Of a stretch of DNA of 64,000 nt, positions 20,270-22,716 are shown one piece after another; positions within the stretch are counted from its first letter, which is position 1, and every line of letters starts with the position of its first letter. Below the pieces are notes generated by a model. The model was not told where the DNA came from. It did not search any database and was given only the letters and a program-made list of their open reading frames with translations. The DNA comes from Streptomyces harbinensis (lineage in GTDB: Bacteria > Actinomycetota > Actinomycetes > Streptomycetales > Streptomycetaceae). A program made the translations under genes and the position numbers. Where the stretch lies: the NCBI RefSeq assembly GCF_900116145.1, contig NZ_FPAB01000001.1, positions 248,001 to 312,000 on the forward strand. The letters are read 5' to 3'.

Positions 20270-21109
20270 ATGAGCCGCAGTGACGTCCTGGTGGACGCCG
20301 ACTGGGTCCAGCAGCACCTCGACGACCCCAAGGTCGTCATCGTCGAGGTGGACGAGGACACCTCCGCCTACGAGAAGAACCACATCAAGAACGCCATCCG
20401 CATCGACTGGAAGCAGGACCTCCAGGACCCGGTGCGCCGCGACTTCGTCGACCGCGAGGGCTTCGAGAAGCTGCTGTCCGCCAAGGGCATCGCCAACGAC
20501 GACACGGTGGTGCTGTACGGCGGCAACAACAACTGGTTCGCGGCCTACGCGTACTGGTACTTCAAGCTGTACGGCCACGGCGACGTCCGGCTGCTGGACG
20601 GCGGGCGCAAGAAGTGGGAGCTGGACTCCCGCGACCTGGTGGCCGAGGTGCCGCAGCGCGCCGCCACCGAGTACCGCGCCCAGGAGCAGGACCTGTCCAT
20701 CCGCGCCTTCCGCGACGAGGTCGTGGCGGCGATCGGCACCCAGAACCTGGTCGACGTGCGCTCCCCCGACGAGTTCACCGGCAAGCTGCTCGCCCCGGCG
20801 CACCTGCCGCAGGAGCAGTCGCAGGTGGCCGGCCACGTGCCGTCCGCCCGCAACATCCCGTGGTCGAAGTCCGCGAACGACGACGGCACCTTCCGCTCGG
20901 ACGAGGAACTGACCGCGCTGTACGAGGGCGAGGGCGTCGACCTGAGCAAGGACACCATCGCGTACTGCCGCATCGGTGAGCGCTCGGCGCACAGCTGGTT
21001 CGTGCTGCACGAGCTGCTGGGTCAGCAGAACGTCAAGAACTACGACGGCTCGTGGACCGAGTACGGCTCGCTGGTGGGCGTCCCCGTCGAGACCGGCCCG
21101 GCGAAGTAA
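20270..21109 (+). CDS. Thiosulfate sulfurtransferase (rhodanese)
   Basis: 279-residue protein with two rhodanese domains. The inactive N-terminal domain (8-130) precedes the active C-terminal one, with catalytic Cys in 'IAYCRIGERSAHSWF' (CRxGxRS, typical of actinobacterial SseA/CysA-type enzymes). It moves sulfane sulfur from thiosulfate to a thiol acceptor. The ATG at 20270 has AAGGAG 6 nt upstream. It is under the leader peptide's control and followed 21 nt later by the DUF1416 gene, its constant partner in actinomycetes. Confidence 0.95.
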   Translation: MSRSDVLVDADWVQQHLDDPKVVIVEVDEDTSAYEKNHIKNAIRIDWKQDLQDPVRRDFVDREGFEKLLSAKGIANDDTVVLYGGNNNWFAAYAYWYFKLYGHGDVRLLDGGRKKWELDSRDLVAEVPQRAATEYRAQEQDLSIRAFRDEVVAAIGTQNLVDVRSPDEFTGKLLAPAHLPQEQSQVAGHVPSARNIPWSKSANDDGTFRSDEELTALYEGEGVDLSKDTIAYCRIGERSAHSWFVLHELLGQQNVKNYDGSWTEYGSLVGVPVETGPAK

Positions 21110-21130
21110 GAGAAGACGGAGACAGGAATC

Positions 21131-21418
21131 ATGTGCGGAGCGAAGTCCGGCGGCCCCGACGCCGCCGCCACGGTGGGCCAGACGACCATCCAGGGCGTGG
21201 TCACGCGGGACGGGGTACCGGTGACGGGGTACGTCCGACTGCTTGACGGCACCGGCGAGTTCACGGCGGAGGTGCCCACCTCGGCGACGGGCCAGTTCCG
21301 GTTCTTCGCGGCCGAGGGCACCTGGACGGTGCGCGCGCTGGTTCCCGGCGGGAGCGCCGACCGCACCGTGGTGCTCGCCGAGCGCGGCGCGCTGGCCGAG
21401 GTCGCCATCGCGCTGTAG
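21131..21418 (+). CDS. DUF1416 protein, sulfurtransferase partner
   Basis: 95 residues. It starts 'CGAKSGGPDA' after Met, then an Ig-like/transthyretin-like beta domain ('GVVTRDGVPVTGYVRLLDGT', 'GTWTVRALVPGG'). The family is almost always directly downstream of a sulfurtransferase gene; Cys2 may accept sulfur, which is inference. GGAGACAGGA precedes the ATG. A hexamer run of CCGGCC follows the stop. Confidence 0.9.
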   Translation: MCGAKSGGPDAAATVGQTTIQGVVTRDGVPVTGYVRLLDGTGEFTAEVPTSATGQFRFFAAEGTWTVRALVPGGSADRTVVLAERGALAEVAIAL

Positions 21419-21458
21419 CCCCGGCCCCGGCCCCGGCCCCGGCGGAAACGCAAAACGA

Positions 21459-21493
21459 CCGCGCCCCTTACGGTGTCACCGGAGGGGGCGCGG
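21459..21493 (+). terminator. Terminator of the sulfurtransferase operon
   Basis: CCGCGCCCC / GGGGCGCGG form a perfect 9-bp stem around a 17-nt loop, 40 nt past the DUF1416 stop. It may also stop transcription from the opposite-strand micro-ORF. Confidence 0.7.
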
Positions 21494-21571
21494 CCTTCGG
21501 GTATCAGGGGGTTCGGAGTCCTGGGATTCCTGGTTGGTCGACGGTGTTTCCGGGTTCAGCGGCAAGGTCGG

Positions 21572-21655
21572 TCAGCTCGCCGTCCCGCAGTTGCCGCAGA
21601 CCCAGTCGCCCGCGGGTCCTTGATGCATGTTACCGCCACAGTTCGGACAATTCAT
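21572..21655 (-). CDS. 27-residue zinc-ribbon microprotein
   Basis: A short ORF encoding M-NCPNCGGNMHQGPAGDWVC followed by GNCGTAS and stop: two CxxC knuckles (C3/C6 and C20/C23) separated by 13 residues, the geometry of a rubredoxin-like or FmdB-like zinc ribbon. GAGAGG lies about 9 nt before the ATG (21653-21655). Function unknown: perhaps a regulator, metal buffer or protein-interaction module. Too short for most gene callers. Confidence 0.65.
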   Translation of the reverse strand: MNCPNCGGNMHQGPAGDWVCGNCGTAS

Positions 21656-21845
21656 GATCACATCCTCTCCACGCCGTTAGACGCACGAGCCGCCGAACCC
21701 GTTCAGTCCGGCGTGATCACAAAACGGTCAATGGGCACGGCACGCCACCCAGCCAACTGGCCTACCTCCCTCGGCTTCCCCAGGATGCGGCCCGCTAGAC
21801 TCGGCAGAGCACCGTATTTTTCCCGCCGACGCACTAGGAGCCCCC

Positions 21846-21947
21846 GTGCTCGAGGCATTCTTCATCACCCTGATGGTTCTGGTCGCCGTGGGCACCGCGG
21901 CGTTCACCGGCCTGGTCGTGAAGAAGCTCTACCAGGGCCAGCGCTGA
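21846..21947 (+). CDS. 33-residue single-span membrane protein coupled to nitrobindin
   Basis: GTG start with AGGAG 5 nt upstream. The product is one hydrophobic helix ('FFITLMVLVAVGTAAFTGLV') with a basic cytoplasmic end 'VKKLYQGQR'. Its TGA overlaps the nitrobindin ATG (TGATG), so the two are made together. A TAGACT -10 box lies at 21796-21801. I know of similar short proteins at this locus in other Streptomyces, without a function. It may anchor or recruit nitrobindin to the membrane (inference). Confidence 0.75.
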   Translation: MLEAFFITLMVLVAVGTAAFTGLVVKKLYQGQR

Positions 21948-22510
21948 TGATCGAGATCCCCTCCGATCTGCACCCCGATCTCGTACCGCTGGTCTTCCTG
22001 CTGGGCAACTGGACCGGCGCGGGCGTGGCCGAGTTCGCCGGTGAGGAAGCCACCAACTTCGGCCAGGAAGTCAGCTTCTCGCACGACGGCCGGGACTTCC
22101 TGGAGTACTCCTCGCACACCTGGCAGCTGGACGACCAGGGCGAGAAGGTCCGCCCGCTGGAGTCCGAGCACGGCTTCTGGCGGGTGACGGGCGAGCGCAA
22201 GGTCGAGGCCGTCCTGATCCGCCAGGACGGGGTCGCCGAGGTCTGGTACGGAGAACTGGCCGAGGGCAAGCCGCGCATCGACCTGGCCACCGACGCCATC
22301 GCGCGTACGCCGTCCGCCGGTCCCTACACGGGCGGAAAGCGGCTGTACGGCTACGTCAACAGCGATCTGATGTGGGTCGGCGAGAAGGCGACCCCCGAGG
22401 TGCCGCTGCGCCCGTACATGTCGGCGCACCTGAAGAAGGTCGTCGACCCCAGCACCTGGGCCAAGGACCTGAAGGACCTGCCGGACGACGGCATCGCCTT
22501 CTTCCGCTGA
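21947..22510 (+). CDS. Nitrobindin / FABP-like heme-binding protein (peroxynitrite isomerase)
   Basis: 187 residues forming a 10-strand beta-barrel of the nitrobindin (THAP4 C-domain, DUF1794) family. These bind ferric heme and isomerise peroxynitrite to nitrate. The family motif GxWxGxG appears as 'LLGNWTGAGVAEF' (residues 18-30), followed by 'QEVSFSHDGRDFLEYSSHTW' and 'ESEHGFWRV'. The start overlaps the upstream micro-ORF stop. A terminator follows at 22558. Confidence 0.9.
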   Translation: MIEIPSDLHPDLVPLVFLLGNWTGAGVAEFAGEEATNFGQEVSFSHDGRDFLEYSSHTWQLDDQGEKVRPLESEHGFWRVTGERKVEAVLIRQDGVAEVWYGELAEGKPRIDLATDAIARTPSAGPYTGGKRLYGYVNSDLMWVGEKATPEVPLRPYMSAHLKKVVDPSTWAKDLKDLPDDGIAFFR

Positions 22511-22557
22511 CCGGCGCGGGCCGGGCCCGGCGGGCGCCGGAGCCCGGACAGCAGAAC

Positions 22558-22587
22558 GCCCCCGGCCGCGTGCGCGGCACCGGGGGC
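22558..22587 (+). terminator. Terminator after nitrobindin
   Basis: GCCCCCGG / CCGGGGGC stem with a 14-nt loop, 47 nt past the stop. A second inverted repeat, GCCTCGGG (22603-22610) / CCCGAGGC (22633-22640), follows. The rest of the 206-bp gap shows nothing else. Confidence 0.65.
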
Positions 22588-22716
22588 ATCCGGTGAAGCC
22601 CTGCCTCGGGCGGCATGTCGGTCAGAGGCGGACCCGAGGCTCACCTTGCGAACGTACCACGAGGGCCCCGGCCCGGCGAGAGCGCGTCCGGGGCGGGGGC
22701 GAGGAGTGCGGACCGG

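Follow-up and report, generated by a model that had tools for sequence, protein, structure and literature searches.

Does a 27-codon open reading frame (ORF) on the minus strand of a Streptomyces harbinensis contig represent a gene, and if it does, what might such a small protein do? The ORF lies in the window, a stretch of 64,000 nucleotides of contig NZ_FPAB01000001.1. A preliminary description, made from the letters of this DNA, had pointed to an unlisted zinc-ribbon microprotein at this site.

The Microprotein Gene and Its Surroundings

Translation of positions 21655-21572 of the minus strand yielded the sequence MNCPNCGGNMHQGPAGDWVCGNCGTAS, followed by a TGA stop codon. The 27-residue protein contains two CxxC pairs, C3/C6 and C20/C23. 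The following features were located in the region:

Up to 21109, plus strand: rhodanese-domain ORF, beside the DUF1416 gene
21131-21418, plus strand: DUF1416 gene, the convergent neighbour
21450-21495, minus strand: possible terminator, a GC-rich hairpin with a T-rich tail, separating the microprotein gene from DUF1416
21572-21655, minus strand: ORF of the Cys4 ribbon microprotein, 27 residues, ATG to TGA, read from the translation and from 19 of 19 syntenic copies
21661-21656, minus strand: GTGATC copy before the ATG
21664-21670, minus strand: ribosome-binding site GGAGAGG, 8 nt 5' of the ATG
21677-21705, minus strand: ECF (sigma-E type) promoter-like element TGAAC-N17-CGTCTAA, a conserved upstream motif
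21713-21720, minus strand: palindrome GTGATCAC, upstream of the promoter-like element
21846-21947, plus strand: 33-residue ORF with a GTG start, membrane-type, overlapping the start of the nitrobindin-like gene
21947-22510, plus strand: THAP4/nitrobindin-like gene, the neighbour on the other side

Thus, the two CxxC pairs, the clean stop, the plausible ribosome site and the orientation opposite to the surrounding genes, which are all encoded on the plus strand, were found as the preliminary description had given them. A GTG two codons upstream of the ATG would extend the product to 29 residues. We prefer the ATG since its spacing to GGAGAGG fits. The hairpin of the possible terminator was only modestly more stable than shuffled sequences (z −2.11; 7 of 200 shuffles were equally stable). 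The microprotein ORF was the only ORF of 20–60 residues in the window with the pattern CxxC-x(8-20)-CxxC, and 60 first-order Markov sequences of the same composition contained one such ORF in all (mean 0.017). The 33-residue ORF is a second microprotein of this region; of 150 genomes sampled in the genus, 148 have it, and Pfam gave no match.

Conservation and Distribution

With a six-row alignment as query, 31 loci were recovered from named genomes, 17 from Streptomyces and 14 from Bacillota. The Bacillota matches, whose ribbons lie within frames of 168–468 codons, were not counted as orthologues and were set aside. Among the 17 Streptomyces species are S. hainanensis, S. sedi, S. hoynatensis, S. 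avicenniae, S. radicis, S. specialis, S. triticirhizae, S. zhaozhouensis, S. otsuchiensis, S. bohaiensis, S. lonarensis and S. spiramenti. In all 17 the gene is flanked by the 33-residue ORF and the nitrobindin-like gene on one side and by DUF1416 and the rhodanese gene on the other.

Some match at E ≤ 1e-5 was obtained in 54 of 392 sampled genomes of the genus. Ten of the 392, including the window genome, combined a match above 52 bits with an adjoining 33-residue ORF and nitrobindin-like gene. Eight of these ten repeat species of the 17 (three of them with 600 identical bases), and one, G330, is additional; no DsrE, DUF1416 or rhodanese match was detected within the 5 kb fetched around its locus L067. 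The comparison below therefore comprises 19 distinct copies, namely those of the 17 species, the window genome and G330. Since only 10 of 392 sampled genomes have the gene, it is dispensable for most Streptomyces. In the family, 8 of 121 genomes gave a match at E ≤ 1e-6, and of the six new loci retrieved through this search (L123–L128) none showed the neighbours of the microprotein gene. A first search of the genus at E ≤ 1 had given matches in 150 of 150 genomes. What these genomes have in common is a match of about 25 bits inside long frames (mostly 424–450 codons), which was rejected; judged by one annotated record (H8), it is probably the ribbon of MurT. A phage source was likewise rejected, since comparison of the 27-residue protein with 50,697 phage records gave a single weak match (E 0.8).

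The preliminary description had proposed a check of the four cysteines across Streptomyces and had named frameshifts or loss of cysteines in orthologous regions as evidence against a gene. Start, length, stop and the four cysteines are kept in all 19 syntenic copies, and neither a frameshift nor a loss of cysteine was encountered among them. Every copy is 27 codons long and ends with TAG (14 copies) or TGA (5 copies). A ribosome-binding site of the form GGA(A/G)AGG or GGAAGGGG precedes each of the 19. Fifteen of the 27 residues are invariant: M1, C3, P4, C6, G7, M10, Q12, G13, P14, G16, D17, W18, C20, C23 and G24. For the 18 distinct DNA sequences the mean pN was 0.127 and the mean pS 0.608; pN was below pS in 153 of 153 pairs, which share ancestry and hence are not independent tests. 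Within codons 2–26, the first, second and third positions vary in 9, 7 and 21 of 25 codons, respectively. This substitution pattern, with low pN and changes at third positions, is of the type expected of a coding sequence. Judged from these comparisons, the ORF is almost certainly a genuine protein-coding gene conserved under selection, and it is probably missing from the annotation.

For comparison, 19 loci without the gene were hand-picked from the list of genomes with the 33-residue ORF and fetched along with G330. A six-frame scan of these 19 loci found no ribbon ORF in the gap beside the 33-residue ORF in any of them. Five short cysteine-rich ORFs in five of them fit CxxC-x(6-20)-CxxC, none in that gap. 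A tree of the nitrobindin-like proteins (19 with and 19 without the gene) required one change of state (support 99/94). Because this tree is unrooted, it fits a gain in one clade and a loss in the rest equally well.

Fold Prediction and Relation to Known Proteins

None of the 25 Pfam families shown reached its curated cut-off. The best match was the TFIIB zinc ribbon PF08271 with 18.1 bits against a cut-off of 29, and rubredoxin PF00301 scored 11.8 bits against 23. AlphaFold2 was run on a 34-residue reading, which is the protein preceded by seven codons from before the start. The model had a mean pLDDT of 79.5, a pTM of 0.46 and two short strands; residues 11–30 of this reading reached a pLDDT of 89 and form a predicted hairpin. 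Foldseek gave no match at E ≤ 0.001 (best 0.55), and VIA re-alignment gave a weak best Z of 3.7. The top structural matches were mostly ribbons, among them RNA polymerase subunits, eL43, eS31, NudC, NrdR and the small zinc-finger protein ZifS, on which a literature search returned nothing relevant. In sequence or structure the best though weak matches, TFIIB (PF08271), RPB9-type subunits, eL43, eS31 and NudC, share a CxxC...CxxC hairpin with the microprotein; unlike it, these ribbons of transcription and translation and that of NudC are domains of larger proteins or complexes. As all ribbon scores stayed below curated or significant levels, the matches appear to reflect a generic ribbon resemblance and no particular function.

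The closest known kind is the CPxCG small zinc finger protein, as defined in PMC2253796. The microprotein fits the pattern and length given there. Its two Cys patterns, CPNCG at residues 3–7 and CGNCG at 20–24, are separated by 12 residues, within the 7–40 that the definition sets for two Cys/His patterns; CPNCG is of the type asked for (at least one CPxCG, CPxCx or CxxCG), with C3, P4, C6, G7, C20, C23 and G24 invariant in all 19 copies; and its 27 residues, the same in every copy, are well below 100. The definition further leaves out proteins that match the Prosite patterns PS00198 and PS00202; zinc binding is expected of such proteins but lies outside this sequence definition. Brz of Halobacterium salinarum and the C(P)XCG micro-proteins of Haloferax volcanii likewise carry two CxxC-type patterns in far fewer than 100 residues, and such proteins are encoded by stand-alone small genes that are easily missed by annotation (PMC2253796, PMC6562870, PMC11241148). 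The microprotein differs from them by its bacterial lineage, by the motif QGPxGDW between the knuckles, by its putative ECF-type promoter and by being shorter than the 30 residues set as the limit for the six-frame search of PMC2253796; its likeness to Brz is one of pattern and length. According to the reports concerned, Brz is required for expression of the adjoining bop gene (PMC2253796), deletion of 16 such Haloferax genes showed all of them to be non-essential, with defects under certain conditions (PMC6562870), and of 14 Haloferax proteins produced, nine bound zinc and five held none (PMC11241148). The last report also states that AlphaFold2 cannot tell whether such cysteines bind metal. 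Taken together, the cysteine pattern and the predicted hairpin make a metal-binding ribbon very probable. The "zinc ribbon" of the preliminary description is thus backed as a ribbon, zinc itself being a prediction. In the literature searched, which consisted largely of papers outside subscription, we found no published Streptomyces peptide of this kind.

The Upstream Region

Beyond the preliminary description, the comparison revealed a conserved ECF-type promoter-like element, a narrow spread of the gene and a DsrE neighbour in the relatives. The element AAC-N17-CGTCTAA is present in 18 of the 19 copies, at −48 in 14 and at −49 in four, and the remaining copy (L067) has AAC-N17-CGTCCAA at −48. 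A count of this motif gave a single occurrence in the window and none in 40 Markov sequences. A looser form, AAC-N16/17-CGTCT, means little because the window holds five of them against 1.85 expected. Within 400 nt, one of the 19 gene-less loci, L094, has AAC-N19-CGTC, and the other 18 gave no AAC...CGTC match of this kind.

AAC, a 17-bp gap and CGTCT are shared with the regulon of Streptomyces coelicolor sigma-E, an ECF factor of the cell-envelope stress response. Of 24 sigma-E promoters from Table 1 of PMC6767563 that were compared, 19 have a gap of 17 bp and five a gap of 18 bp when counted in the same way; AAC occurs in 19 of these entries and CGTC in 12. PMC10771440 gives spacers of 16–19 bp by its own measure, with 18 as the most frequent. 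Unlike the members of that regulon, the microprotein gene is linked to sigma-E by a motif match alone. Since other ECF factors probably read such promoters too (PMC6767563, section 6), "sigma-E type" refers here to the motif and makes no claim of dependence on sigma-E itself. With this meaning, control of the gene by an ECF factor of the sigma-E type is likely.

GTGATC is found upstream, at about −65 (in the window at the palindrome, 21713–21720), in 18 of the 19 copies and again just before the ATG in 18 of 19. The pair flanks the promoter-like element and is possibly an operator pair.

The DsrE Neighbour

In all 17 Streptomyces relatives a DsrE gene (PF02635) follows 3' of the microprotein gene on the same strand. 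Its distance from the stop codon is about 30–60 nt in 13 of them and about 245–280 nt in the other four. The window has no DsrE gene between the microprotein gene and DUF1416 (21418–21572). A DsrE query was positive in four of six genomes, the window genome and G330 being the two without a match. The window genome also contained no other DsrE-family protein, in a search whose control was positive in 8 of 14 genomes. Loss of DsrE from the window genome and G330 is very likely, and it is not proven because both assemblies are drafts (98–100% complete). DsrE also adjoins the 33-residue ORF in seven of the gene-less loci, in the usual orientation in six and reversed in L095; none of the seven showed an AAC-N15-19-(C/G)GTC match.

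Related Ribbons in Streptomycetaceae

The ribbon core CxxCG-x4-xGPxGxWxCxxCG recurs in short ORFs elsewhere in the family, either single or in tandem. In L012, L014, L126 and L127 a 27-residue ribbon is followed by a second ribbon, and positions 1363–1682 of L127 hold three short zinc-ribbon ORFs close together. In L009, L010 and L128 a somewhat longer ribbon precedes a partner with NHWSEG. A third ribbon type, in a separately placed lineage, was found in L123–L125 (genus g11). In these three loci a GC-rich inverted repeat lies between GGAGG and the ATG (about 1350–1500, oriented), perhaps a hairpin controlling translation. AAC-N16/17-CGTCT occurred within 300 nt upstream in 3 of 26 loci of the wider family, all of the g11 type and at −147 to −151. 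The motif is missing from the other 23, so the wider ribbon family as a whole is not marked by ECF control.

Related ribbons also occur on plasmids. On CP108822.1 (L120, 8001–8350; 131 listed genes) and on NZ_CP107868.1 (L122, 1965–2302; 62 listed genes) the ribbon ORF is absent from the gene table, which does give the small gene directly behind it as hypothetical; on CP108822.1 this partner has 64 residues. The gene table used is known to be incomplete. No gene was listed beneath nine of the 11 plasmid matches, a count that is weak because at least one record is almost unannotated and another match may be a MurT gene. A plasmid-type relative gave no match at E ≤ 0.01 among the phage records. 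Comparison of the neighbours of ten other ribbon loci revealed no shared context; the cross-matches among them, L112/L114 (45.7%) and L112/L115 (35–36%), do not adjoin the ribbon in both loci.

Alternative Explanations

The ORF might have arisen by chance, or might be contained by accident in a regulatory RNA. It is indeed very short and without a curated family match, and the upstream block with GTGATCAC, the promoter-like element and the ribosome site is conserved as DNA too. Against this stand the fixed length and the four fixed cysteines, the concentration of changes at third codon positions and the low pN in all, though not independent, pairs; moreover, Rfam gave no match at gathering level in 21100–22600. 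A chance ORF is therefore rejected. Alternatively, translation of the ribbon ORF, or of its cysteine codons, could mainly control the downstream DsrE gene, as the constant order of the two genes in the 17 relatives would suggest. However, the window genome and G330 retain both the ORF and the promoter-like element without a detected DsrE gene, so the microprotein is not merely a DsrE leader. The constraint also spans the whole peptide, with its 15 invariant residues, and not merely a stalling stretch. We regard a leader peptide as highly improbable.

The main rival is a minimal rubredoxin-like peptide or a thiol/metal buffer, whose cysteines would hold iron, or zinc that is released on oxidation, and whose task would be redox or sulfur chemistry, in the vicinity of rhodanese, of DsrE and of the nitrobindin-like protein, which binds heme. 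The sequence GDWVCxxCG resembles the second knuckle of rubredoxin, and a profile match to rubredoxin chains was obtained with E 0.00039 over residues 17–25; rubredoxin-type models are also among the weak matches of several ribbon members. Furthermore, the sulfur- or heme-related genes for rhodanese, DsrE and the nitrobindin-like protein adjoin in 17 of 17 Streptomyces relatives. Yet the rubredoxin match is limited to this one knuckle, the window protein falls short of the PF00301 cut-off, and two genomes that retain the microprotein gene gave no DsrE match. We consider this rival rather unlikely, at about one chance in a few. For an adaptor or regulator rather than a redox or buffer peptide the odds appear even.

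Proposed Role

Our best overall reading, which we hold with about equal belief and doubt, is a stress-induced Cys4 metal-binding adaptor or regulator microprotein. In this proposal, RNA polymerase with a sigma-E-type ECF factor would start transcription behind TGAAC-N17-CGTCTAA and produce a very short leader, and ribosomes would begin translation at the ATG that follows GGAGAGG. The resulting peptide would form one small ribbon hairpin, with C3, C6, C20 and C23 as the ligands of a single metal ion, probably zinc. We infer this control, the fold and the metal from the motifs and models described above; what follows is a guess as to partner and effect. The conserved QGPxGDW might dock on RNA polymerase, the ribosome or another protein, and the docked peptide might then act as adaptor or regulator during envelope stress.

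More tentatively, and with less than even confidence, the observations can be joined into a wider picture. Minimal zinc-ribbon regulators might form a hidden family in Streptomycetaceae, encoded by single, paired or tripled ORFs and often missed by annotation. The window copy would then be an envelope-stress effector under a sigma-E-type factor, and the L123–L125 lineage, with AAC-N17-CGTCT about 150 nt upstream in three of three loci, would look as if stress control had arisen twice.

With 27 codons the gene is below usual gene-finding limits, and still it comes with a ribosome site, a promoter-like element that is conserved, and clear selection at the protein level. The action of a lone zinc ribbon in a bacterial cell could be put to the test in this minimal system. 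The gene also suggests that Streptomyces stress regulons may include effectors invisible to annotation-based studies.
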